NCBI GenBank assembly: GCA_025057975.1
Contig: JANWUV010000003.1
Span: 124,001 to 188,000, forward strand
Origin: Chloracidobacterium sp.
GTDB lineage: Bacteria; Acidobacteriota; Blastocatellia; Chloracidobacteriales; Chloracidobacteriaceae
Direction: 5' to 3'
DNA length: 64,000 bases
Shown here piece after piece: positions 13,419 to 31,559 of this stretch. The notes beneath the pieces are model-generated. The model was not told the origin of the DNA, did not search any database, and saw nothing but the letters and a program-made list of their open reading frames with translations. The stretch's first letter is position 1. Every line of letters begins with the position of its first letter. A program made the position numbers and the translations under genes.

Positions 13419-13690
13419 GGCTGTTCAGCCTCCGTATGCTGCAAAAACAGCGCTCTCGCCGGATTTGTATTTGACAAGCGTGGGCATGAAGCGTAAACAA
13501 AGACACACAGTTGGAAAGCGGTTTGTCGTAGCCGATTTCAGTACGTCAAGCTATTTGTACGGAACTGAAGCTTTTGATGACGCGGCCGCCGTCACGCTGG
13601 AGTCAGTGAGCGGGGCGGTGAGTCGCACACCAGTAACCTGTTATGCCGTACACCGGCATGACCGAGTCAACTCATACGAGGGTGTATCTG

Positions 13691-16600
13691 ATGAACGACA
13701 TTTCCTCTTCATCATCAACGCCGAATGAGCGTCCGCGACGGCGGTCGGGTTGGCGACGCTTGTTGCCGCTGACGGTGGCGGCGACGGTGTTTGTCGCCTG
13801 CGTAGCGCTGACCTTCCGCGTTCCGACGACGCGCGCGGCCGGTCGGGCGCAATGGAAGGCCGGGAAGTTCACCGTGGAAACGCTGCGCGAACTGTCCATT
13901 CCCGGTAATCGCGTCAAGCTGCTGGTAGCATCCGATGCACCGGTAACCGAGAGCCTGCGCGGGTCTAAGCTCATTAGCGAATATGAGAGTTTCCGCGTCT
14001 TTGAAGTTTCTGCATCGGAAGCGGCGCGACTGGCGAATGAGCCGGGCGTGACGCAACGCAATGACTTCAACTCGATTTACCTCAACGCTGTAGAAATCAA
14101 CACAACTTCAGCCGCGGCGCAGTCTTTACGGCAGGAGCAAGCCTTGGTGGACGGCGTCGGAATGCGCTTGGTGCAGTTTGCCGGGCCCATCCAGCCCGCC
14201 TGGGTGCGCATGCTGGAAGCGACGGGCGTGCAGATTGTGACCTACGTGCCGAGTAATGCGTACTTAGTCTATGGGAACGCAAAGGCATTCGCGGCGCTCA
14301 ACAATCTGGCGCAACGGACGGAGGCGCTCCAGTGGGATGGTCCCTACTACGGGTTGTTCAAGATTCACCCGTCGGCGCTGCCAGGTAGCAAGCAGTTCAT
14401 TGACACGAACGGGGAGTACCAGATTCAGCTTTTCAACGACCAGCAAGGCAACCGAGGGACGTTTGACCTGCTGCGCAGCATCGGCGCGCGGCAGATTGGG
14501 GAGACAGAGGCGTGGGGGCCATATGTCAACCTCATCGTCAAGATGTCGCCGGACAACCTGATGGACGTGGCGAATCGTCCCGACGTGGTCTCAATTCACC
14601 CGAACGTCGAAGTCAAAAAGCTCGACGAGCGGCAGAATATGATTGTCGCGGGGAACATCACGGGCAACACCCCGAACCCCGGCAACTACTTCACGTTGCT
14701 AGCGAACTGGGGCTTCACGCAGGCGCAGTTCAATGCATCTGGATTCATTGTGGATGTGACGGATGATGGGGCTGACCGAAATCCGCCCCCCGGCGACCCC
14801 GGAACGATTCCGTTGAATTCGAACGCCGGTCCTGTCCCAACACGGCATTTCTGTTTGCGTGAGAGCGGTAACTTCACCGGCGCGTCGAGGTTTATTTACA
14901 AGGGCTTGTGGGGGACAAGCGTTGGTAGCGACGGTGGAGAGGGTCGGAGCGGCCACGGTCAGCTCAATATGAGTATTGTGGGCGGCTTTGTGCCGGATTC
15001 GTTCGATCCGGGTGGGACGCGGATTCATCGTGACCCGGACGGCTTCCGGTACGGTTTAGGCGTCGCCCCGTTTGTGCGGATGGCGAACTCGGTGATTTTC
15101 GACCCGAACTTCACGTTCCCGAACTTCAGCAACATGCTGGATGCGAGCTACGGCAGCGGGGCGCGGATTACAAGCAACAGCTGGGGCGCGGCAACTGCTG
15201 GAGCGTATAACGTCAATTCGCAGACCTACGACGCGCGGACGCGCGATGCGCAGCCGTCGGTTGCTGGCAACCAGCAGTTGGCGATGGTGTTTGCAGCTGG
15301 CAACAGCGGCCCCGGAGCACAAACAGTGGGTGCGCCAGCGACGGCGAAGAACGTCATCGCGGTCGGCGCGGCGGAGAATGTGCATTCCCATTCGAGCGCG
15401 AACGGTGGGAATAACGCCGCCGGCAATGACGGGTGCGGCATCCCGGACACCGGCGCGGATAGCGCCAACGATATGATTTCATTTTCGAGCCGTGGGCCAT
15501 GCCAAGACGGGCGGCAGAAACCCGACATTGTAGCGCCGGGGACGCACGTAACGGGGATGGCGTACATGGCCCCTGGTTCTGACCCGACGACGCCGCCGAA
15601 CAATACCGGGATACCTGATCCCGGTTTCCGAGCGGACGGTGTGTGCGCGCTGCCGGGAAGCGGGTCACCCGGCAGCCCGAACAACTACTTCCCGTTCACG
15701 ACGGGGCAGCGGTGGTGGACAACCTCGTCCGGGACGAGCCACTCCTGTCCGGCGGTGGCCGGCGGAGCGGCGCTGGTGTACCAGCAGTTCATCAACAACC
15801 CGTCGTACATTGGCGCGCACCGGACACCGCCCGGATCTGCGCCGCCGAGTCCAGCGATGCTAAAGGCGTACCTGATGAACACAACGCGATATATGACGGG
15901 CGTCGGCGCGGGCGGCACGCTCTGGTCGAACAGCCAAGGGATGGGGATGATGAACCTCAGCACGGCGTTCAACGGCGTGCAGCGAATCATTCGTGACCAA
16001 GTGCCGGCGGATCGGTTTACGGCGACCGGGCAGGAACGTGTCTTTACTGGGACGGTGGTGAATCCGGCGGCACCGTTTCGGGTGACGCTGGCGTGGACGG
16101 ACCCGCCGGGTCCGACGACAGGTAACGCTTATATCAACGACTTGGACTTGGAAGTGACGGTGGGCGGCAATACCTACCGTGGGAACGTGTTCAGCGGCGC
16201 GAACTCGGTACCGGGCGGCACAGCCGATTTCCGCAACAATGTAGAAAGCGTGTTTTTGCCGGCCGGGGTGAGTGGGAACTTCATCGTCCGAGTGCGGGCG
16301 ACCAACATCGCCGGGCAAGCCGATCCGACCATTTCGGGCAACAACCAAGACTTCGCGCTGGTGGTGCACAACGGACAACCGGCGACGATACCGGTGATTA
16401 CTGGTGTGAGCGCGGTGATTGTATCAGAGAGTTGCTCCCCGCCGAACGGACGCCCTGATCCGGGCGAGACGGTGACGGTGAACGTGACGCTGCGCAACGA
16501 CGGGACGGCGGCGACGAATGGGGACCTGATTGCGACGCTGACGCCGACGGGCGGCGTCGGTTCGATTGGCGGAACAAACCCGCAGAACTACGGGACGCTG

Positions 16601-18865
16601 GCCATCGGCGCAAGTGCGACGCGGGCGTACACCTACACGGTGAGCGCAACCTGCGGCAGCACGTTGACGATGACGCTGAACTTGGCGGACGGGAGCGGCA
16701 GCCTTGGAACGGCGGCATTCTCCTTCCAAGTCGGTGTGCCGAACAATGTTCTGACGCAGAATTTCGACACGGTGACGCCGCCGGCGCTGCCACCGGGTTG
16801 GACGGCGGCCAATGCGTCGGGGCCGGCACCGTTGTGGGTGACATCGAGCGTGACGCCGGACACGCCGCCAAACTGTGCGTTTGTAGATGACCCGAACGTG
16901 GTGAGCGACAAGCGGCTGGATACACCGCCGATTACCTTGACGACGAGTCAGGCGCAGCTGACCTTCCGCAACTCCTACAATCTTGAGAACGGGTTTGACG
17001 GCGGGGTGCTGGAAATCAGCATCAATGGCGCGCCGTTCCAAGACATTTTGTCGGCCGGCGGGAGCTTTGTGACTGGCGGCTACAATGGTACCCTCAGTAC
17101 ATGTTGCGGAAACCCGATTGGCGGGCGGCAGGCGTGGACTGGAAACTCCGGCGGGTACATCACGACGACGGTGAACCTACCGGGCAGTGGCACCCGCACG
17201 GTGGTCTTGCGCTTCCGCATGGGGAGTGACTCAAGCGTCGCAGGCGTCGGCTGGCGGATTGACACGCTGGTGGTGCAGGACGGCTTCAACTGCTGTGGCG
17301 CGGTGCTGACGCCAAACGTCATCTTCTCCAGCCAGACGACGAGTGAAGTGCCGGGAACGCTCAACAGCGACGGCGACGGTTTCTTTGAGCCGTGCGAGCG
17401 ACTGCAGTCGTCGATTACAGTAACAAACGTCGGTGGCGCGACGGCGACGACGGCGACGGTGACGATCACGACGACAACGCCGAACGTGACCATTCTGACC
17501 GGGACGACGCCGAACCTCGGACCGATTGCGCCGGGCGGTACTGCGACGGGGACGGTGACATTCCGATTGGAGCCGAACTTCGTGCCGGGTACGCCGGTGA
17601 ACATCAATGTGTCGGTGGCGTTCGGGCCGGGCGGGCCGAGTCCCAGCACGTCGAGCTACACAGTGTCGACGGGTTGCCCAGTGATACCGGGCGGTACATT
17701 CACCTTCTCCAACACGGCGCCGATTACAATCCCGTCGTCAGGCCCAGCAATACCCTATCCATCCACTATCACCGTCAGTGGCGTCACCGCCCAGATCACA
17801 AAGGTGACGGTGACGATCAATAACTTCAACCACACGTGGCCAAGTGACGTGGGCGTGCTGCTGCGTGGTCCCGGCGGTCAGATTTGCGTGCTGTTCAACA
17901 ACGCGATTGGCGGAGCAGGCGGTGTGACAGGCCGGACGTACACGTTTGACCAAACGGCTGCGTCGCCATTGCCGGCGACGGGCTTCCCGCCGAGCGGGAC
18001 ATACCGGCCGGGTGACTACGGTGGGGCGCGGAACTTCCAGCCGCCGTTGCCGCCGCCGCCCTACAACAGCAACCTGAATATCTTCAATGGTTTGTCTGGG
18101 GCGAGCGTCAACGGGACATGGGAACTCTATGTCCGTGACTTTGTCAGCGGGGACTCTGGCAGCATCAACGGCGGGTGGTCCATCACCATCGAGACAGGCA
18201 CTCCCAACTGCTTCACGACGGCGTGCTTGACGAATGTCAACCCGCAGGTGCAGTTGCTGATGTATCCGTCGGGTTATGCTGCGTTGTTGGGTTGTCCGGG
18301 CTATCCCTTCCGGTACATCCTGACCGGACAGTTGACCAACACGGGCACAAACACGCTGTCGAACATTGCCATTCAGGTGAAGGGACTTGGCTATCCTGAC
18401 CTGAGCAATCCAAACAACGTCATTCTAGCGTCGCCGAATCCGCATCGGTTGGCGTCGGCGGATGACTACGTTGGGCCGTGTGCCTTCAGCGGCGGACAAG
18501 CTGGCTCACTTCAGACGACGCTGAACGGTAAGCCGCCCATCGGCAGCGACACGCCGATTGGGACGCTGAATCCGGGGCAGATTGGATCGGTCTTCTTCCG
18601 CATCCATACGCCGAACACCCAACCGATTCGGTTCCTCGTGGATGTGTTGGCGATTGTCGGCCCCGGCCCGACATCGGCTGAAAACGCCGATGCGGAGCGG
18701 CAAGTCATCGGCACGATGGCAATAGACGTGATTCCCGATGCGAACGGGAAGCTAACGGCGCGTGTGGTCAGCTATGAACCGGCGACGCCGCAGGCGAAGG
18801 CCGCCGAGCCGACGGTTGCGCCGACTCGGACGCTTCCCGCCGCGACGCCGGGACGGCGACGCTAA
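13691..18865 (+). CDS. Very large secreted subtilase (S8 family) with multiple C-terminal beta domains
   Basis: 1724 residues. A signal or anchor segment (LLPLTVAATVFVACVALTF) is followed by a propeptide-like region, then an S8 catalytic domain: Asp in FIVDVTDDGADRNPP (about residue 350), His in GRSGHGQLNMSIVGG (about 420), oxyanion Asn in AGNSGPGAQTV and nucleophile Ser in TSSGTSHSCPAVAGGAAL (about 680). After it come a peptidase-linked beta domain, CARDB-like repeats with conserved CEP/SP segments, a jelly-roll-like segment, and a proprotein-convertase P-like domain (ITKVTVTINNFNHTWPSDVG ... GTWELYVRDFVSGDSG) near 1340-1500. Predicted role: extracellular protein degradation. The start at 13691 has GAGG nine bases upstream. 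A terminator follows directly. Confidence 0.88.
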   Translation: MNDISSSSSTPNERPRRRSGWRRLLPLTVAATVFVACVALTFRVPTTRAAGRAQWKAGKFTVETLRELSIPGNRVKLLVASDAPVTESLRGSKLISEYESFRVFEVSASEAARLANEPGVTQRNDFNSIYLNAVEINTTSAAAQSLRQEQALVDGVGMRLVQFAGPIQPAWVRMLEATGVQIVTYVPSNAYLVYGNAKAFAALNNLAQRTEALQWDGPYYGLFKIHPSALPGSKQFIDTNGEYQIQLFNDQQGNRGTFDLLRSIGARQIGETEAWGPYVNLIVKMSPDNLMDVANRPDVVSIHPNVEVKKLDERQNMIVAGNITGNTPNPGNYFTLLANWGFTQAQFNASGFIVDVTDDGADRNPPPGDPGTIPLNSNAGPVPTRHFCLRESGNFTGASRFIYKGLWGTSVGSDGGEGRSGHGQLNMSIVGGFVPDSFDPGGTRIHRDPDGFRYGLGVAPFVRMANSVIFDPNFTFPNFSNMLDASYGSGARITSNSWGAATAGAYNVNSQTYDARTRDAQPSVAGNQQLAMVFAAGNSGPGAQTVGAPATAKNVIAVGAAENVHSHSSANGGNNAAGNDGCGIPDTGADSANDMISFSSRGPCQDGRQKPDIVAPGTHVTGMAYMAPGSDPTTPPNNTGIPDPGFRADGVCALPGSGSPGSPNNYFPFTTGQRWWTTSSGTSHSCPAVAGGAALVYQQFINNPSYIGAHRTPPGSAPPSPAMLKAYLMNTTRYMTGVGAGGTLWSNSQGMGMMNLSTAFNGVQRIIRDQVPADRFTATGQERVFTGTVVNPAAPFRVTLAWTDPPGPTTGNAYINDLDLEVTVGGNTYRGNVFSGANSVPGGTADFRNNVESVFLPAGVSGNFIVRVRATNIAGQADPTISGNNQDFALVVHNGQPATIPVITGVSAVIVSESCSPPNGRPDPGETVTVNVTLRNDGTAATNGDLIATLTPTGGVGSIGGTNPQNYGTLAIGASATRAYTYTVSATCGSTLTMTLNLADGSGSLGTAAFSFQVGVPNNVLTQNFDTVTPPALPPGWTAANASGPAPLWVTSSVTPDTPPNCAFVDDPNVVSDKRLDTPPITLTTSQAQLTFRNSYNLENGFDGGVLEISINGAPFQDILSAGGSFVTGGYNGTLSTCCGNPIGGRQAWTGNSGGYITTTVNLPGSGTRTVVLRFRMGSDSSVAGVGWRIDTLVVQDGFNCCGAVLTPNVIFSSQTTSEVPGTLNSDGDGFFEPCERLQSSITVTNVGGATATTATVTITTTTPNVTILTGTTPNLGPIAPGGTATGTVTFRLEPNFVPGTPVNINVSVAFGPGGPSPSTSSYTVSTGCPVIPGGTFTFSNTAPITIPSSGPAIPYPSTITVSGVTAQITKVTVTINNFNHTWPSDVGVLLRGPGGQICVLFNNAIGGAGGVTGRTYTFDQTAASPLPATGFPPSGTYRPGDYGGARNFQPPLPPPPYNSNLNIFNGLSGASVNGTWELYVRDFVSGDSGSINGGWSITIETGTPNCFTTACLTNVNPQVQLLMYPSGYAALLGCPGYPFRYILTGQLTNTGTNTLSNIAIQVKGLGYPDLSNPNNVILASPNPHRLASADDYVGPCAFSGGQAGSLQTTLNGKPPIGSDTPIGTLNPGQIGSVFFRIHTPNTQPIRFLVDVLAIVGPGPTSAENADAERQVIGTMAIDVIPDANGKLTARVVSYEPATPQAKAAEPTVAPTRTLPAATPGRRR

Positions 18866-21687: not shown

Positions 21688-22353
21688 CTAAGACAAAGCA
21701 ATCCGCTGACTGTAGAAGTCGTAAATGCGGTTTAGGCGCTTAAGTTCGCGCTCGTAGATCGTATCCGTAAGCGACTGAATGTTTTTGACCGGCCGCAAAG
21801 CGTTGTAGCCCCGCTCAAGCATGTCCACAATGTTGTCGCGTGACATTGTGAACATATGGGCTGTCAAGCGCGCCGTCTTGAGAATCATGCCGATAAAGCG
21901 GTACTGGCACAATGAATGGGTGAAATGGAAGCACTCTACGATGAGGTCAAGCTGCTCGATTCGCGCATCGTAGTTGTTGCACCGGTAGTACGCTTCATCG
22001 TACTGCTCTTGAGAAATGTTCCGCCTGACGCCCATCTTTTCGAGCGTGACCACCATCAAGTTGTCCAGCGCATCGGACAACTCATAGAGGTCAAGCAGGC
22101 GAATCAGACCGTGAAAGAACCGTTCGCCCAGCGCGTTGCGGAAATAGTTTGAAATTTGCTCAAAACTGCGGTTGCGCTCTTCAAAGTCGCGCGGCGCGTA
22201 AATGTCCTGCACGAAGAACTCACATAGCGGCCCGTATTCTTTTGAGTTATAGAGGTCACTAAAGTTGCGTTTGAGCTGTTTGACCTGAAAATCTTGGAGT
22301 TCGCGTTTGAGCGCAAGGTTGACGGCGGTTTTCGCCGAAGCTTTCTTGGGCAT
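21688..22353 (-). CDS. Helical protein resembling the FFLEELY-motif group
   Basis: 221 residues, all alpha-helical in composition, no signal peptide or membrane segment. LKRNFSDLYNSKEYGPLCEF and FVQDIYAPRDFEERN resemble the start of the loosely defined FFLEELY-motif proteins (Y-D/N-L ... FFxxDIY-x-P-x-DF), but the match is by eye and the function of that group is unknown. Ends with a helix carrying RIYDFYSQRIAL. It is 110 bp upstream of the patatin gene on the same strand and might be cotranscribed. Confidence 0.6.
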   Translation of the reverse strand: MPKKASAKTAVNLALKRELQDFQVKQLKRNFSDLYNSKEYGPLCEFFVQDIYAPRDFEERNRSFEQISNYFRNALGERFFHGLIRLLDLYELSDALDNLMVVTLEKMGVRRNISQEQYDEAYYRCNNYDARIEQLDLIVECFHFTHSLCQYRFIGMILKTARLTAHMFTMSRDNIVDMLERGYNALRPVKNIQSLTDTIYERELKRLNRIYDFYSQRIALS

Positions 22354-22515: not shown

Positions 22516-25500
22516 ATGAATCATAGACAACAAACGACGTGGGTCGGTTGCGGCGGTACGTCGTGGCGACGTTGCCGCCGCTGCGGTCTGTGGTTGGGCG
22601 TGGTTTTCCTCCTGCTAAACGGTGGATTCGCCGCCCAAGCGCCGCCGGCGACGGGCTTGACCATCAGCGGCGTGGTCGTCGCCGAGTCCGGCGCTCCGCT
22701 GGCGGACGCCAAGGTAATGTGTACGAGCCCGACCGCCCCTGTGGCCTCCCTGCTGACGGGGACGGACGGCAGATTCACCTTCACCGTTCCGCGTGTCGGC
22801 AAATACACCATCACCGCCACCGCGAATGGCTATCGGCCGCAGACACAGGCCGTCAGCTTGAGTCGTCCCGACGAGATCGTCAGCGATCTGAAGCTCCAAC
22901 TGTCCCCTAGCTCGCTGCGGGTCGTCGCGCGCAGTGAGCGCACCAATGTGAATCTCAGCGGTGCAGTCGTGACGGCGCGGCTGAAGGACACGGCGCGGCG
23001 TGAAGTCACCGCTCTGCGCGCGCTCGAAGGCCGCCGGGGTGAGTACTTCTTCGGACGCATGGAGGCGGGCGTTTACGAGGTCACGGCCGTCGTCACCGGC
23101 TACGAAGCTAAAACGGTCGAGGTCGTCGTTCCCGGCGAGCGGACGACGCTGGAAGTCACCCTTCTGTTGAACCGCGTATCCACCATTCCCATCGGCGTGC
23201 GCAGCTTGGATCGTTCATTCGTTGCGCCGCGCTTACCCTCCAATGACGTGCAGACTGTGTTTTGCGACGCCGATGGAAGCGTGTGGTTTGGGACGACCGC
23301 CGGCGTCTGCCGCTTTGACGGACAAGCGTCCCAGTCGTCTGAAACGCCGGAGTCGTTTCTTGCTCCCCTCGTCGGGAAATCCGTGACGGCGCTGGCGCGG
23401 ACAACCGACGGTGTGCTGTGGTTCGGAACGCCTGACGGACTGGCGTTTCTGCCGTCGGGAATGACGACGGTGTCGTTTCTCTCCGAATCGGCGCGTGATG
23501 TGACCTGCCTATTGGCGGGTGTAGGCGGCGAGCTTTGGGTCGGGACGGCGAGCGGGCTGTACCGCTACTGGCCGGCCTCCACTCAGTGGCAACCGGTCGC
23601 TGACATTGGCGCGACGCGGATCGCCGACCTCCACACGTTGCCTGACGGCGGCGTGGCGGCGGCGACTGCCCGCGGACTGTTCCGGTGGCGGCCAGGGCAA
23701 GGCTGGGAACGGCTGACCCCGACCGCCGTCGGCGAGGCGGCCGTACACGGCGTCGCTGCCGATCCGCAGTCGCCGACGCTCTGGTGTACGACTTCCGCTG
23801 GGCTGTGCACGGTGACCCCAGACGGCCACCTTGTCGCTGTGCCGGGCGCTTTGTCGCAACGTCCGCTGGGAGCCTGTCGAGTGGATGGGGAAGGGCGCGT
23901 CTGGTGCGCCCGCGCCGACGGGCAGGGCGTCATTGTTTATGACCCCCACCGCAACGAGGCGGCGGAATTGCTAACTGACGCCGCCGTGGTGGGTGTGACC
24001 TGCGACCTTGACCACAACCTCTGGTTCGCCACGGACAAGGGTGCTTTCCGGCACGATGTCTATAGCTTCGTCGTCTTTGACACAAGTCGTGGCTTGCCGG
24101 ACAGCGATGTGTACGCTGTAGCGCCCGCCGCTGAACCGGGCCGTCTCTGGGTTGGGACGGCGCGCGGCGTCTATGCCTTCGACGGCGTACGCTTTCAGAG
24201 TCCGCATCCCGACCTAGCCAAACTGACGGTTCGCGCGCTGCTGGCGGCGGACGATCGCCTGTGGGTTGGGGCGGAAAACGGCCTCTGGTTGTGGGACGGT
24301 GCAGCTGTTCGCGCCGTCACAGCCGACGACCGTTCCCTGACGCGGGTGCGGTCGTTGCTGCTGGACGCTGCGCGCCAAACGCTCTGGGTCGTCACAGCTA
24401 AGATGCTGTTCAAACTCAACGCCGTGACGCTAAAGCCGGACGGCGAAGCCATTCCGCTGGACGGCGAAGTGCGGACGGCGACGCTTGCCCGCTCCGGCGC
24501 GGTGTGGCTGGCCACTAACGACGGCGCGTACCGCTATGAGCCAGAAACGGCTGAACTCGTGGTCATCGGCGATACGCGCGGACTGGAGAACCTCGATGTG
24601 CGCGCCGTTGTTGAACAGCCCCAGAGCGGCCGCTTTTGGCTAGCGACGGGACGGGGGATTGAAACCTTCGACGGCGTGAACTTTGTCTCCGACAGTTTTC
24701 AGACGGCGGTGCAGGGCGGCGACGTACAAGCCCTGTACGTCGAGCAGAACGCCATGGAAGCCTTTCTGTGGGTCGCGTTGGGTGACGGCAGCCTGCGCAA
24801 ATTTCTGCTGGACGAGGAAGGTGTGGCGCAGACCTACCGGCGGGATCGGTATGATCTCGGTGGTCTGCGTCTGCGCGGCGTTGTGAAAACGCCGGACGGC
24901 GCCCTCTGGCTCGCCACCGACGCCGGGCTGGTGCGGCATCGCCCCAACCTGCGTCCGCCCGTCGTGGACATTCGCCTAGAAGCCGACGGAGCAGAGATCC
25001 CGTCGGCGAGGGAAGCGTCACTGCGCGCTGGCTTCCATCGGTTGAAATTTCGCTTTACAGCTGTCAGTCAGACCGGCCCGGTGACGTACTTTTACCGCCT
25101 CGTCGGGCGCGACGCTGACTGGCGACGCATTACGCCGGAGCGCACAGCGACGACGCCGACCGAGTACGCTGTCAGCGGCCTGCCCGCCGGCGAACACGTC
25201 TTTGAAGTGCGGGCACTGAGTCGTGACCTGTACGGGCGGACGGCCGCCGTTCGGCGCTACGTCGTGCGGATTGACGCCCCGTTTTACCTGCGGGGCTGGT
25301 TCTGGGCCGTCTGCGCTTTAGTCATGACGGGCGGCGGCACAGGCGTCTGGCTTATGCAGCGTGCGCGCAGCCGGGAATACGTCCTGCCGCCGGCGCTGCG
25401 CAAATTCACGCCCATCGGACGCAATCCCTACGTCGTCGGCAACCCGATTCGCTCCCAAGCCATGTTTTTCGGCCGCGAGGATGATTTCCAGTACGTCGTG

Positions 25501-26565
25501 CGGAAGCTCGAGGCGACGCCGCAGGGACTGGTTATCGTTTTTTGCGGCGAGCGACGTACGGGAAAAAGTTCTATCCTCTACCAGATGGCGAACGGCCGGT
25601 TGGGTGAAGCATTTACGCCGGTCTTCATAGACATGCAGGAAATGCTGGTTCGCAGCGATGGAGAATTTTTCAACCGCGTCGCCCGTCTCATCGGCGAAGC
25701 CGTGACCAAACAAACGTCTGCGCCGTGGGAACCACCTGATTTCACAGGCGAGCCGAACCCGTATGACCGTTTCCGAGCATTCATTGAAGCGACGCTCGAC
25801 CGGATCGGCGACCGGCAACTGGTGTGGCTGGTAGACGAGTATGAGTTGTTTGAGACGAAGGTGGAAGACGGCAAACTGTCGCGTGATCTCGTGCCGTTTC
25901 TGGCGAGTTTGCTGGATCGTTATGCACGTCTGTCGTTTGTGTTTACCGGCTCGCGGCGGCTGGAAGACCGAGATCGGCGCTTCTGGCGCGACTTGTTGCG
26001 GCGGTCACTGTTTCGGAAGGTGTCCTACCTGACGCCTAACGACACACGGCGGCTCATTACGGAACCGGTCAGAGACTGCGTCGTGTACGGTCGGGGCGTG
26101 GTGGATGCCATCGTGCGGTTGACGGCCGGACAGCCGTTTTACACGCAGGTGCTCTGCCAAAACATAGTTGATTTTCTCAATGAGCAGAAACGGCACTACG
26201 TGCTGCGGGCGGATGTCGTCGCCATTGTTGAGGAGGTCGTCAACAACCCGCTCCCGCAGATGATGTATTTTTGGGACGGTCTGAGTGACGATGAAAAACT
26301 GGTGCTGGCGCTGATGGCCGATGTGCTGCTGGACGAAGCCGACGTTGTCACGGCCGAACGTTTGGCCACGCGCATTGCGGAAGCGGGCTACCCTGTCACG
26401 CTGTCCGAGACGACGATTCGGCTGACGCTGGAAGAGTTGTTTCGCAACGAGGTGCTTGAAAAGTATGGCGATGACACTTTCGCTTACCGAGTGGATTTGC
26501 TGCGTCACTGGATTCGGCGCAGTCACAGCGTCTGGCAAGTCGTAGGCGAAGTGCGCTCGCGGTAG
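22516..26565 (+). CDS. Receptor-like protein: PEGA/CarboxypepD-like domains, two-component propellers, Y_Y_Y domain, TM, cytoplasmic AAA/STAND ATPase
   Basis: 1349 residues. In order: a signal or anchor segment (about 25-40); two carboxypeptidase-regulatory-like Ig domains (about 46-205; GLTISGVVVAESGAPLADAK); two-component-regulator propeller repeats from about 210 to 830 (many W-F-G-T/A-T blades such as VWFGTTAGVCRFDG, LWFGTPDGLAFL, LWVGTARGVYAFDG); a Y_Y_Y domain (FRFTAVSQTGPVTYFYRLVG); one membrane helix at about 926-945; then a cytoplasmic P-loop ATPase with FFGREDDF (985), Walker A CGERRTGKSSIL (about 1010), Walker B VWLVDEYELF (about 1101) and the sensor-like FTGSRR (about 1143). In typical hybrid two-component receptors the part after Y_Y_Y is a histidine kinase; here no kinase motifs exist and an ATPase replaces it. 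ATG 22516 chosen over the frame start at 22390 because it precedes the signal sequence. Confidence 0.82.
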   Translation: MNHRQQTTWVGCGGTSWRRCRRCGLWLGVVFLLLNGGFAAQAPPATGLTISGVVVAESGAPLADAKVMCTSPTAPVASLLTGTDGRFTFTVPRVGKYTITATANGYRPQTQAVSLSRPDEIVSDLKLQLSPSSLRVVARSERTNVNLSGAVVTARLKDTARREVTALRALEGRRGEYFFGRMEAGVYEVTAVVTGYEAKTVEVVVPGERTTLEVTLLLNRVSTIPIGVRSLDRSFVAPRLPSNDVQTVFCDADGSVWFGTTAGVCRFDGQASQSSETPESFLAPLVGKSVTALARTTDGVLWFGTPDGLAFLPSGMTTVSFLSESARDVTCLLAGVGGELWVGTASGLYRYWPASTQWQPVADIGATRIADLHTLPDGGVAAATARGLFRWRPGQGWERLTPTAVGEAAVHGVAADPQSPTLWCTTSAGLCTVTPDGHLVAVPGALSQRPLGACRVDGEGRVWCARADGQGVIVYDPHRNEAAELLTDAAVVGVTCDLDHNLWFATDKGAFRHDVYSFVVFDTSRGLPDSDVYAVAPAAEPGRLWVGTARGVYAFDGVRFQSPHPDLAKLTVRALLAADDRLWVGAENGLWLWDGAAVRAVTADDRSLTRVRSLLLDAARQTLWVVTAKMLFKLNAVTLKPDGEAIPLDGEVRTATLARSGAVWLATNDGAYRYEPETAELVVIGDTRGLENLDVRAVVEQPQSGRFWLATGRGIETFDGVNFVSDSFQTAVQGGDVQALYVEQNAMEAFLWVALGDGSLRKFLLDEEGVAQTYRRDRYDLGGLRLRGVVKTPDGALWLATDAGLVRHRPNLRPPVVDIRLEADGAEIPSAREASLRAGFHRLKFRFTAVSQTGPVTYFYRLVGRDADWRRITPERTATTPTEYAVSGLPAGEHVFEVRALSRDLYGRTAAVRRYVVRIDAPFYLRGWFWAVCALVMTGGGTGVWLMQRARSREYVLPPALRKFTPIGRNPYVVGNPIRSQAMFFGREDDFQYVVRKLEATPQGLVIVFCGERRTGKSSILYQMANGRLGEAFTPVFIDMQEMLVRSDGEFFNRVARLIGEAVTKQTSAPWEPPDFTGEPNPYDRFRAFIEATLDRIGDRQLVWLVDEYELFETKVEDGKLSRDLVPFLASLLDRYARLSFVFTGSRRLEDRDRRFWRDLLRRSLFRKVSYLTPNDTRRLITEPVRDCVVYGRGVVDAIVRLTAGQPFYTQVLCQNIVDFLNEQKRHYVLRADVVAIVEEVVNNPLPQMMYFWDGLSDDEKLVLALMADVLLDEADVVTAERLATRIAEAGYPVTLSETTIRLTLEELFRNEVLEKYGDDTFAYRVDLLRHWIRRSHSVWQVVGEVRSR

Positions 26566-27388: not shown

Positions 27389-28444
27389 TCAGGATGACGA
27401 CTGGCGGAACTTGTCCATCGGGAAGTTCACGCCAAGGACGGACGGATCGCCGTTGCACAGCGACTTGACAATGTACTCGTATAGGTAGTTGGACTCGGCC
27501 CGCACCTGCGGGTCGGCGCGCTCCTCATAGGTCTTGATGCTGTTGTCGAACTCCTTCTTGAGCAAGTCGTACAGGTTTTTCTGCGCGATACCCTGCTCGA
27601 TTTTCTGCGGATTGTAGATTTTGATGTCGCTAACAATCGTGCGCGCCACGCGCTGCGCTATCTTGTGCAGCTCTTCACTAGCTTTGAACTTGGTCGGCGG
27701 TGTGGGTGCGGGAGGCGAGCCCAGGGGCACGGTTTGGCCGCCCGGCGGTATAAAGTAAGCCGGAATTTCGGTTTCACTGGTTGCTGGCGTAGCCGGTGTC
27801 GGGTCAGGCGCATTATTGACATCAAACTCCGGCAACGGCTGCGCTTGGAGTTGAGCTTCCATAGCCCGGCGAGCTTCTTCAGCGCGACGGGCTTCTTCCG
27901 CTGCGAGGCGGGCGGCTTCCTCGGCGCGGCGCTGCTCTTCCAGTCGGCGCTGTTCCTCGGCACGCCGCCGTTCTTCAGCGCGACGGGCTTCTTCGGCCGC
28001 GAGGCGAGCGGCTTCTTCCTGAGCGCGACGTTGTTCTTCGAGTCGCCGCTGTTCTTCAGCGCGACGGGCTTCTTCCGCTGCGAGGCGGGCGGCTTCCTCA
28101 GCGCGGCGCTGCTCTTCCAGTCGGCGCTGTTCCTCAGCGCGGCGCGCTTCTTCCTCAGCCCGCCGTTGTGCCTCCAGCCGCCGCTGTTCTTCCAGACGAC
28201 GTTGTTCTTCGAGTCGCCGTTGCTCTTCAGCGCGGCGCGCTTCTTCCGCCGCTCGTTGCTGAGCTTCCGCGACACGCGCCGCTTCCTGCGCAGCGCTTGG
28301 TTTTTCCAACGCCGGCGGCGAGCCGCCCATCAGCCCCAAACCTGCGGCGTCTTCGGTTTTCTTACCTTTGAGGAAAAGGAAGGCGGCTGCGCCGACGATA
28401 CCGATGACGACGATCGCCAAGCCAATTGCAACGTAAGTGTCCAC
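27389..28444 (-). CDS. Membrane-anchored E/A/R-rich coiled-coil protein linked to bchB
   Basis: 351 residues, GTG start with AAGGAG eight bases upstream. One N-terminal membrane helix (VAIGLAIVVIGIVGAAAFLFL), then from about residue 58 to 205 a very long charged helix built of repeats of the type EEARRAEEQRRLEEQRR with AARLAA spacers, consistent with an extended coiled coil; then a Pro/Thr-rich linker and a C-terminal helical domain of about 110 residues (FKASEELHKIAQRVARTIVSD ... ESNYLYEYIVKSLCNGD) that I do not recognise. It follows bchB by 58 bp on the same strand and ends at a terminator, so it is the third gene of the bchN-bchB operon. Function unknown; a scaffold or membrane tether is plausible. 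Confidence 0.8.
   Translation of the reverse strand: MDTYVAIGLAIVVIGIVGAAAFLFLKGKKTEDAAGLGLMGGSPPALEKPSAAQEAARVAEAQQRAAEEARRAEEQRRLEEQRRLEEQRRLEAQRRAEEEARRAEEQRRLEEQRRAEEAARLAAEEARRAEEQRRLEEQRRAQEEAARLAAEEARRAEERRRAEEQRRLEEQRRAEEAARLAAEEARRAEEARRAMEAQLQAQPLPEFDVNNAPDPTPATPATSETEIPAYFIPPGGQTVPLGSPPAPTPPTKFKASEELHKIAQRVARTIVSDIKIYNPQKIEQGIAQKNLYDLLKKEFDNSIKTYEERADPQVRAESNYLYEYIVKSLCNGDPSVLGVNFPMDKFRQSSS
27859..28245 (-). repeat. Degenerate in-frame repeats coding the coiled coil
   Basis: The DNA coding for the E/A/R-rich segment repeats blocks encoding EEARRAEEQRRLEEQRR plus AEEAARLAA, with a period of about 26-32 codons and 4-5 copies that differ mainly at silent sites. Prone to copy-number change by slippage. 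Confidence 0.75.
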
Positions 28445-28502: not shown

Positions 28503-30128
28503 TCACTTGCGTGACAGTTCATCGCGCGTAGCGTAAATCGTCTGGGGGAGAATCTCGCGGATGCCATGCTCGCGCGCGTACTTCTCGGTGTTATGCATCG
28601 CCTTCTTACGGATGAAGAAGGGGATTTTTTTCAACTCCGCCAAGGCTTCATCCGTCCATCGCGGCTCGCCGGCCGCTTCTCTGGAGGCCGCGCCCGCCGG
28701 CGTCGCTGTTGCAACAGCAGCAGGGGTTGGCGCGGCGTCCACAGCCGGTGCGGCCGCCTTGGTGACCTGGCGGGGCGTGTCCGGCAGGTCGGGTAATCTA
28801 ACCGCACCCAGAACGGAATCATGTTCAACGCCCGGCAACTCGCGGAACATATCAATCAAGTGCGATTCCAAACCAAGCGTGAGTGTGTGCGTTACCGCGT
28901 CAAAGATTACATTAGCCCCTTCCCAACCTGCAAATGGGGAATAGCGGGCCGGAAAATCCGTGACGTGGGCTGGGCAGCTAATGACCGTCGCCGGCAAGTC
29001 ATACCGCCGCGCCGTGTGACGTTCCATTTGCGTCCCAAGAACGATGTCCGGCATCAGGTCGGCGATCCGCCGCTCAACTTCCTTGAAGTCGTCCGAGTAA
29101 AAGCCCTGCCAGCCACGCCGGGCGCACTCATCGAGAAACGCCCCTGAATGTTCATAGGAAAACGTCCCGACGGCCAGCGGACGCATGCCGATTTCTTCCT
29201 CCATCATCCGGGCGACCGCCAAGGCGTGCGACGCCACACCGAACACAAAGGACCGTTTGGGCGTCAGGTAGTGGCTGTCGGCGGAACGTGAATACCACGG
29301 CATGCGGCTCATCGTTTCCGGGCGTGGATGGAAGTTGGCCGGGCGGCCGCCCAGTTCTTCAACCTTAGCCTGCACCAGCTCGATGAATTCCTGCGTCGCC
29401 TGAATCCCAATCGGCGCATGGACGAGATAGGGCTGCCCAAAGCGGTGCTCCAAGATTTTCGCCGCCCGCAGCCCAATTTCAGCGTAAGGTACAACATTGA
29501 ACCACGCCTGACCCAACCGGGCGAAGTCGGCCGCCGTACCACCAAGGGGGAGCGCCGCATTGACCCGCACGCCGCACTGGTTGAGGAGGCCGGTAATTTC
29601 CCGTAGGTCGTCGCGGTGACGGAAACCAAGGCTGGTCAACCCCAAAATGTTGACGCTGGGTTCCGGCGTCCGCTCACTCGTCCCCGTCGCCAGCTGCTCA
29701 ACCAAACCGGCGAACGTCATATCCGCCCCTTGATCCTCTTTTTCGCAGAAGGCGTTGAGCTGAAGGAAAACCAGTCGGGCGTTGCACCGTGACTGTAAGC
29801 GATTCAGCGCGCCGCCCACATCCTCCTTGAGGAGATTGGACGTGCAGGTGGGAATGACCTGAATGATGCGCGGCTTGTGTGTACGCTCAACCTGCTCCAC
29901 GACAGTGATCATTCGATCCACGCCCGTCGTAGAGACCTCTTTCCGCCCGTAGCTGACGTTAGTTACGGCTGGGAAGCCGCACTGCCGATCAATCATCGTG
30001 AACAAAACACTGGTGTAGGAATCACCGCCGGGCGCGTGGAGCACCGTATGTATGCCGGGAATCGAAGTCCCAACCCGGCATGCGCCGACATGAGCCGGGC
30101 CTTCATATGTCCAGTAGTGAAGTCGCAT
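28503..30128 (-). CDS. bchB: Light-independent protochlorophyllide reductase subunit BchB
   Basis: Forms, with BchN, the nitrogenase-like catalytic heterotetramer that reduces ring D of protochlorophyllide in the dark; BchL supplies electrons. 541 residues. Begins MRLHYWTYEGPAHVGACRV; Asp36 (in HAPGGDSYTS) aligns with the unusual Asp ligand of the [4Fe-4S] cluster shared with BchN. The middle has the substrate-pocket segments (VIPTCTSNLLKEDVGG, PLGGTAADF), and the C terminus has the PCP_red helical domain WTDEALAELKKIPFFIRKKAM preceded by an Ala/Pro/Thr-rich linker of about 35 residues. AGGAG lies nine bases before ATG 30128. It lies 74 bp after bchN in the same operon. Confidence 0.97.
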   Translation of the reverse strand: MRLHYWTYEGPAHVGACRVGTSIPGIHTVLHAPGGDSYTSVLFTMIDRQCGFPAVTNVSYGRKEVSTTGVDRMITVVEQVERTHKPRIIQVIPTCTSNLLKEDVGGALNRLQSRCNARLVFLQLNAFCEKEDQGADMTFAGLVEQLATGTSERTPEPSVNILGLTSLGFRHRDDLREITGLLNQCGVRVNAALPLGGTAADFARLGQAWFNVVPYAEIGLRAAKILEHRFGQPYLVHAPIGIQATQEFIELVQAKVEELGGRPANFHPRPETMSRMPWYSRSADSHYLTPKRSFVFGVASHALAVARMMEEEIGMRPLAVGTFSYEHSGAFLDECARRGWQGFYSDDFKEVERRIADLMPDIVLGTQMERHTARRYDLPATVISCPAHVTDFPARYSPFAGWEGANVIFDAVTHTLTLGLESHLIDMFRELPGVEHDSVLGAVRLPDLPDTPRQVTKAAAPAVDAAPTPAAVATATPAGAASREAAGEPRWTDEALAELKKIPFFIRKKAMHNTEKYAREHGIREILPQTIYATRDELSRK

Positions 30129-30202
30129 AGGTTTTTACTCCTGAGCAGAAGGAAGCGCGATAGCGTTGGAAGCCAGTCGTCATCGAACCAAAGCACTGCC
30201 GC

Positions 30203-31480
30203 TCAGACAGCGGCTGGCCCGGCGGCCGGTTGGTTAACATACCACCCGCGCTGCGCCATCAGGTTCCCACGCCGGACAGGACGTGCAATGATTTCCGCCA
30301 ATTCCTTGGCGTGCTTGAACCCGTGGATGGGCGTAAACGTGAACTCAATTGACCACTTGGTCGGCAGTCCGCGTGATTCAAACGGATTCGCCAGCCCAAG
30401 GCCGCAAATCGTTAGGTCAGGTTTGAGGGCAATGATGCGCTCAGCCTGCGCGATAACATCCGGTTTCTCATACAGCGTCAGCCCTTCCGGTAGGCAGGCC
30501 ACGTCGGCCGCCATTGCCTTGCGGTTGAAGTAAGGCGTGGAGAGTTCAACAATTTCCGCGCCCATTTCATGCAGCAGGTTAGCAATAGGGAGTTCGAGCA
30601 AGTTGTCGCCGACGATGGCAATGCGTTTGCCGATGAGCAGTTCGCGCTCCGGCCCGATTCGTTCCCAAGCTTCAGCTTCGAGCGCCGCGAGCTTGGCGGG
30701 CGGCTCCTTGCCGAAGGCGCGGCAAATGGCTTCGTAAAACTGGCGAGTCGCCGTCGGCCCAATAGGCGTCCGGCAGGAAATGACCTCGACGCCGCGCCGT
30801 TTGAGCGCGTTCATCGTCATGGAGAGATACGGCTGGAGCGCCACGGCGACGGTGTTTGGCCCAATGGCGGGCAGTCGGCGTGGGTCGCGCGCCGGGAGGA
30901 CGCCGCGTACGGGAATCTCCAGTTCGGCTAGCTGTTCGAGAATTTCATCTTCCACGAGGTCGCCCACTGCGCCGACCAACAGGAGTTCGCGCGGCGTGCC
31001 GGGCGCTTCCTCCGGCGAGATGGCCAGCAACGCCTGCAGCACGCCGTCTTCGCCCTGGGTAAACGTGTGCTCCAGACCGGAAACCGGCGCGAACATAATC
31101 GGGCGGGCGTACTTCTGCGTCAGCATCTCGCCGATGTTTTGGAGATCAATCTTGATGATCTCGGCTGGGCAAGTGCCAACAAGGAAGATAATCGTCGGGT
31201 TGTATTCTCGAACGATGTCGCCCACGATACGGTCAAGTTCAAGGTGGGCGAAGTCGGCGGTTTTCGCCGCCAAGTCGCTTTCTTCGATGATGGCAGTGGC
31301 GAAACGCGGCTCAGAAAAGATCATCACGCTGAGCGCAGACTGCATGAAATACTGGCAGGTGTGGCTGCCGACAATCAGAAAAAACGAGCCACGAATTTTG
31401 CGGTACAGCCAAGCGATGCAGCCGAGCGAACAGAAGCCTTCGGCGCAGCTTGCCTCGCGGATGACATTCAAGGACGCCAT
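30203..31480 (-). CDS. bchN: Light-independent protochlorophyllide reductase subunit BchN
   Basis: Partner of BchB in the dark protochlorophyllide reductase. About 425 residues from ATG 31480, which has GGAG eight bases upstream; a longer frame from 31507 has no such site. Three cysteines match the cluster ligands of characterised BchN: C17 (EGFCSLGC), C42 (SHTCQYF) and C104 (GTCPAEI); the fourth ligand is Asp36 of BchB. The C-terminal half has the nitrogenase-type Rossmann domains, e.g. GKRIAIVGDNLLELPIANLL. It starts the operon bchN-bchB-coiled-coil. bchL, the electron donor gene, is not in this window. Confidence 0.97.
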   Translation of the reverse strand: MASLNVIREASCAEGFCSLGCIAWLYRKIRGSFFLIVGSHTCQYFMQSALSVMIFSEPRFATAIIEESDLAAKTADFAHLELDRIVGDIVREYNPTIIFLVGTCPAEIIKIDLQNIGEMLTQKYARPIMFAPVSGLEHTFTQGEDGVLQALLAISPEEAPGTPRELLLVGAVGDLVEDEILEQLAELEIPVRGVLPARDPRRLPAIGPNTVAVALQPYLSMTMNALKRRGVEVISCRTPIGPTATRQFYEAICRAFGKEPPAKLAALEAEAWERIGPERELLIGKRIAIVGDNLLELPIANLLHEMGAEIVELSTPYFNRKAMAADVACLPEGLTLYEKPDVIAQAERIIALKPDLTICGLGLANPFESRGLPTKWSIEFTFTPIHGFKHAKELAEIIARPVRRGNLMAQRGWYVNQPAAGPAAV

Positions 31481-31559
31481 AGGGGGATCTCCAGAAAAGG
31501 TGCTCAAGACACGCCTGCCGCACCGGACGACGCAGCAGACTGCCTTGCCCCTAAGTTCG

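Follow-up and report, generated by a model that had tools for sequence, protein, structure and literature searches.

This analysis concerns a receptor gene in a 64-kb window, the whole stretch of DNA that was analysed, from the 3.5-Mb genome of a Chloracidobacterium sp. (contig JANWUV010000003.1, positions 124,001 to 188,000; genome G000 in our numbering, in which f and L numbers denote families and loci). An earlier note on this DNA had read the encoded protein as a sensor carrying an AAA/STAND-type ATPase in the place of a histidine kinase. The features of the receptor are given below in window coordinates, with residue numbers of the window receptor in brackets.

22516..26565, + strand: uninterrupted open reading frame of the receptor, 1349 amino acids plus stop (ATG at 22516, stop at 26563-26565)
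22516..22647, + strand: signal peptide-like N terminus (residues 1-44), inferred by reading, with the hydrophobic stretch CGLWLGVVFLLLNGGFAAQ at 23-41 and then AQAPP
22660..22878, + strand: first CarboxypepD_reg domain (49-121), Pfam PF13620
22909..23175, + strand: second CarboxypepD_reg-like domain (about 132-220), a second Pfam stretch with limits estimated via alignment
23227..24960, + strand: propeller region (about 238-815), Reg_prop, with blade motifs such as LWFGT..GL
24961..25275, + strand: Y_Y_Y-like domain (about 816-920; Pfam stretch 856-904), sub-threshold in Pfam
25300..25356, + strand: membrane helix (929-947), a hydrophobic stretch
25465..25479, + strand: FFGRE entry motif (984-988), from the alignment of 17 proteins
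25546..25572, + strand: Walker A, GERRTGKSS (1011-1019), found in 27 of 27 receptors examined
25825..25845, + strand: Walker B, WLVDEYE (1104-1110), found in 27 of 27 receptors examined
26005..26022, + strand: SLFRKV, possible arginine-finger motif (1164-1169), with R1167 invariant in 17 proteins
26128..26148, + strand: GQPFYTQ, STAND-type GxP motif (1205-1211), from the alignment
26266..26562, + strand: probable C-terminal winged helix (1251-1349), conserved up to the final residues

The ectodomain is built as the earlier note had described it, with two CarboxypepD_reg domains followed by a propeller, a Y_Y_Y domain and one membrane helix. In the window receptor the two PF13620 stretches score 72.7 bits and Reg_prop 74 bits in Pfam, both families are found in all 17 aligned proteins, and ten strict blade motifs were counted in the propeller region. 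The Y_Y_Y domain scores 20.1 bits, under the cut-off of 26.6, and matches better in orthologues (best E 2e-8); the hydropathy of the helix is a modest 1.48 and exceeds 1.6 at the equivalent place in most orthologues. On the cytoplasmic side an AAA_22/nSTAND1-type ATPase match in Pfam spans residues 981-1206, and Walker A, the hhhhDE Walker B and GxP, which are the motifs of STAND nucleoside triphosphatases, are all present. The motif positions proposed earlier were right to a few residues. A role of SLFRKV as arginine finger is possible by its likeness to SPLFGR of PDB 2fna.

No Pfam match to HisKA, HATPase_c, Response_reg or GGDEF was obtained in the window receptor at E 0.01, in agreement with the claim that histidine kinase and response-regulator sequences are absent. 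Because the GxP motif is followed by a conserved C-terminal stretch and then by the end of the protein, the receptor is without an output domain of its own. The C-terminal region has a helix/strand pattern compatible with a winged helix, and its predicted local distance difference test (pLDDT) by block is mostly 76-92 in an AlphaFold2 model of the Y_Y_Y, transmembrane and ATPase regions and low in a model of the ATPase alone. STAND ATPases normally include winged helices. Searches with PADLOC and NCBIfam gave weak or partial matches only, and when solved structures were searched by sequence with the profile of the receptor, no PDB chain matched convincingly. The layout had been suspected to belong to no described class, and no description of it was found in the searches made of open-licence papers.

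Full-length or near full-length relatives occur in families f1, f2, f8 and f9 among 162 genomes of the class Blastocatellia. Seventeen proteins including the window receptor align end to end, the others being 37-79% identical to it, so that the predicted recurrence of the order Y_Y_Y, membrane helix and ATPase was borne out with the complete domain order in four families of the class; no histidine kinase domain is among the 25 Pfam families listed for these proteins. None of the findings that the earlier note had named as speaking against its reading was obtained. When the window receptor is compared with the members from outside the genus, and these with one another, pairwise identity averages 0.34-0.41 for the ectodomain, 0.33 for the membrane helix and 0.61-0.67 for linker, ATPase core, lid and C terminus. 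Such identities are what a variable sensor upon a conserved transmitter would give. The entry motif's G, R and E are invariant or near-invariant, as are almost all residues of Walker A, Walker B and GxP. The layout of the reading frame is therefore not due to chance, since the catalytic motifs are kept at such divergence.

A comparison of gene neighbourhoods, which the earlier note had proposed, revealed a second, kinase-bearing ATPase beside many receptors. This soluble protein of about 640-690 amino acids consists of an nSTAND2 ATPase (PF20702, 395 bits for the copy of the window genome) and a Hanks Ser/Thr kinase (Pkinase, 168 bits), and it is the sole nSTAND2 protein of the window genome (contig 5:8768-9739). 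By strict patterns, all but a few of 27 partners have intact VAIK, HRD and DFG motifs, and K409, H501-R502-D503 and D521-F522-G523 (numbering of alignment A5) are invariant in an alignment of 15. A profile comparison shows the ATPases of receptor and partner to be homologous (99.65% probability, E 4.7e-25), and Walker A and Walker B are kept in both proteins of 27 pairs; the partner of G013 fails the strict Walker A pattern yet reads GERKIGKSS. The partner ATPase profile also matches PDB 2fna (E 2.9e-7), which we take to be SSO1545, an archaeal-type STAND ATPase. After the sensor-1 region most receptors read SL(F/Y)R, the partners SPFFNIF and 2fna SPLFGR, in an alignment uncertain by one or two residues, with the receptors of G213, G225 and G379 deviating from SL(F/Y)R. 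On one reading of these motifs, the partner is without an arginine finger and the receptor may supply it.

Among 396 Acidobacteriota genomes, both genes are present in 24, the receptor only in one, the kinase only in one and neither in 370 (Fisher p 3.6e-36 on counts uncorrected for shared ancestry). In the receptor-only genome (G317) the gene lies near a contig end, the kinase-only genome (G310) is 82% complete, and among the 24, G442 is counted because of a 111-codon fragment of the partner. The corresponding counts for the class are 20, 0, 1 and 141, the lone exception being 85% complete. In f24 both genes are present in all four genomes, and in f34 the receptor is found in one of 15 genomes and the kinase in that same genome. 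Receptor relatives with a partner extend to eleven families of Acidobacteriota, and in six of them (f2, f9, f24, f36, f40 and f65) the two genes adjoin or have at most two others between them. The kinase gene directly adjoins the receptor gene in f2, f24, f36, f40 and several f9 genomes and is one gene away in f65 (G400). The nSTAND2-kinase is thus an obligate-looking partner of the receptor, which itself is present in one copy per genome and is mostly stable within families.

A profile of the Y_Y_Y, membrane helix and ATPase regions, run over the 396 genomes, found the ATPase in further families at about 250-450 bits. It is joined to Peripla_BP_6 and a membrane helix at L072 and L082 by domain scan, and in a Peripla_BP_6-like arrangement at L071, L073, L076 and L083 as judged by reading; at L075 and L077-L081 it follows a polytopic N terminus, and at L074 the order is inverted, with the ATPase preceding a membrane helix and PEGA domains. 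The propeller, periplasmic-binding-protein and polytopic types each form one clade in a tree of the ATPase (support 99-100). With differing inputs across Acidobacteriota, the ATPase therefore behaves as an exchangeable transmitter. At L092:575-4653 (G225) both proteins are inverted: the kinase part precedes the ATPase in the partner, mirroring the adjacent receptor, in which the ATPase precedes the transmembrane and PEGA parts.

These observations lead us to propose, with a probability of roughly three in four, a signalling pair of two ATPase proteins in which the receptor is the sensing half and a Ser/Thr kinase is switched. Its extracytoplasmic part, made up of propeller, Y_Y_Y and Ig-like domains, would bind either the cell envelope or a ligand. 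Via the single helix, this event would alter the nucleotide state of the cytoplasmic STAND-type ATPase, which in direct contact with the soluble nSTAND2 ATPase-Hanks kinase would form or dissolve a mixed assembly. The change in the assembly would switch the kinase on or off, and with it the phosphorylation of its putative substrates, the signal passing inward. The replacement of a histidine kinase by an ATPase, as first suggested, holds; because the receptor co-occurs near-perfectly with an ATPase-Ser/Thr kinase fusion, the output is probably phosphorylation via that partner and not ATPase activity alone. In the same genome the propeller proteins L157 and L159 end in histidine kinases, and a further one (L158:2455-6000, G000 contig 2) has a Hanks Ser/Thr kinase at its end (Pkinase, 172 bits) and is the one-chain counterpart of the proposed receptor-kinase pair. 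Propeller inputs feed both phosphorylation types in this genome, and it is therefore plausible that the ATPase receptor has a kinase as its output.

Several results weigh against this proposal. The isolated ATPase domain passes the Pfam cut-off of AAA_22 only (30.3 versus 27), and the window receptor is under the cut-off for every named STAND family (for the isolated domain, nSTAND1 23.6 versus 27.1, ATPase_2 18.1 versus 33.2, nSTAND2 14.9 versus 24). Both single-protein AlphaFold2 models, with five alignment rows each, are poor (pLDDT 59 for the Y_Y_Y, transmembrane and ATPase regions and 53 for the ATPase alone). The two genes are unlinked, on another contig or far apart, in f1, which is the family of the window, and in f8, f17, f34 and f75, and likewise in G158 of f9; in the window genome the kinase gene lies on another contig than the receptor. 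The f34 genome with both genes (G456) is 8% contaminated. Finally, co-occurrence and the correlated distances of receptor and partner (r 0.89) partly reflect shared ancestry, and since shared ancestry alone can yield such a correlation, it was not used as proof.

Genes for more distant relatives of the two ATPases likewise lie side by side in pairs (L148-L155), where domain names without Pfam support were assigned by reading. At L148:5033-13418 a 2178-residue caspase-like/TPR/CHAT-type protein with the first ATPase stands beside a fusion of the second ATPase to a caspase (PF00656), and L149 is a pair with HEAT-like repeats. An N6-methylase/specificity-like protein is fused to the first ATPase at L150:4618-10349, L151:4774-10408 and L161:3310-8836, with the second ATPase gene following it, and on an Acinetobacter plasmid a similar pair comes after a type I restriction subunit. 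The pairs of L152, L153 and L155 have small multi-helix membrane segments, and at L154:5687-9328 a membrane-segment ATPase lies beside a nucleotide cyclase-ATPase fusion (Guanylate_cyc, 27.6 bits). Outside Acidobacteriota, the search of plasmids yielded a distant methylase-ATPase but no close receptor; with the partner as query, only the kinase part was covered among the matches listed.

The conflict-type domains of these distant pairs, caspase/CHAT and methylase among them, and the plasmid-borne pair beside a restriction subunit suggest an alternative in which the receptor belongs to an anti-invader system and a disturbance of the envelope would lead to ATPase assembly, kinase activation and growth arrest or death. 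Two-gene nSTAND2 operons have indeed been predicted to be counter-invader systems, for which a heteromeric assembly was proposed (Kaur, Burroughs, Iyer and Aravind 2021, PMC8195603). However, the single, mostly stable copy per genome, the strongly conserved ATPase, kinase catalytic residues that appear intact, inputs of the extracytoplasmic ligand-binding type and the weakness of the PADLOC matches make this unlikely. Less likely still is a receptor that acts alone, its winged helix or ATPase working on DNA or an envelope machine, with the kinase co-occurring for other reasons; the probable winged helix at the end of the protein and the unlinked genes of the window genome would fit this, but winged helices are normal in STAND ATPases, and the co-occurrence (24/1/1) and repeated adjacency speak against it. 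A functionless recombination accident, a degenerate or chimeric hybrid histidine kinase, could account for an ectodomain like that of hybrid two-component receptors in a genome with genuine propeller histidine kinases, but it is contradicted by 17 aligned proteins in four families with invariant catalytic motifs and can practically be dismissed.

Other neighbouring genes were considered as partners and rejected. In G155 (f9) an EcoRV-type endonuclease (340 bits) and a D12 methylase are encoded between receptor and kinase (L050:7072-8957), and in G161 the intervening gene clusters with that D12 methylase; these restriction genes look like an insertion. Within the genus, the receptor stands beside a patatin gene, two unknowns and bchB/bchN-like genes, which are not kept in other families. 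In the window, the flanking genes at 27389-28444 and 21688-22353 are conserved in the genus and have no Pfam match, and two Oxidored_nitro genes at 28503-31507, one with PCP_red, would fit the bchB and bchN genes of a phototroph. A 1740-residue subtilase with weak P-domain, CARDB and InhA-type MAM matches is encoded at 13643-18865.

If the proposed receptor-kinase pair is real, a STAND ATPase, a type known chiefly for its part in immunity and cell death, would serve as the transmitter of ordinary-looking membrane receptors, inputs would be swapped on it as they are on histidine kinases, and bacterial ATPase pairs would be linked to Ser/Thr phosphorylation. The pair would also offer a small, genetically simple model of sensor-helper ATPase signalling in which the sensor is defined and the kinase output can be measured, and it points to a little-noticed bacterial route for inward signal transfer. 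Whether Acidobacteriota possess a further general type of transmembrane signalling in addition to receptor kinases and two-component systems, with swappable sensors on a STAND ATPase that would enter a mixed assembly with a STAND-fused Ser/Thr kinase and be kin to conflict-type ATPase pairs, is about evenly balanced.

The closest known system is the two-gene nSTAND2 operon described by Kaur et al. (2021, PMC8195603). It encodes two nSTAND2 proteins, of which one has eroded NTP-binding motifs, with an arginine finger in both, and GT4 or HEPN domains make up most of the effectors. As in those operons, two genes encode related STAND-type ATPases, and the kinase partner belongs to nSTAND2. Unlike there, the Walker motifs are intact in both proteins, one protein is a transmembrane receptor, and an intact Hanks kinase takes the place of the GT4 or HEPN effector. 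The genes are near each other in six families and unlinked in five. With propeller histidine kinases the receptor shares the propeller, one membrane helix and a Y_Y_Y-like domain that is sub-threshold in Pfam, but it lacks HisKA, HATPase_c and receiver domains and has an ATPase transmitter instead. PDB 2fna, to which the partner ATPase is remotely similar, has neither receptor nor kinase. As in receptor Ser/Thr kinases such as L158, an outside sensor is linked to Ser/Thr phosphorylation; sensor and kinase form one chain there, whereas here they are two chains, joined by their ATPases as proposed. In plant sensor-helper NLR pairs and in mammalian NAIP-NLRC4, which are soluble immune proteins, a sensor STAND protein recruits a second one that gives the output. 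The likeness to these is an analogy only, the sensor here being a bacterial membrane protein and the output that of a Ser/Thr kinase.

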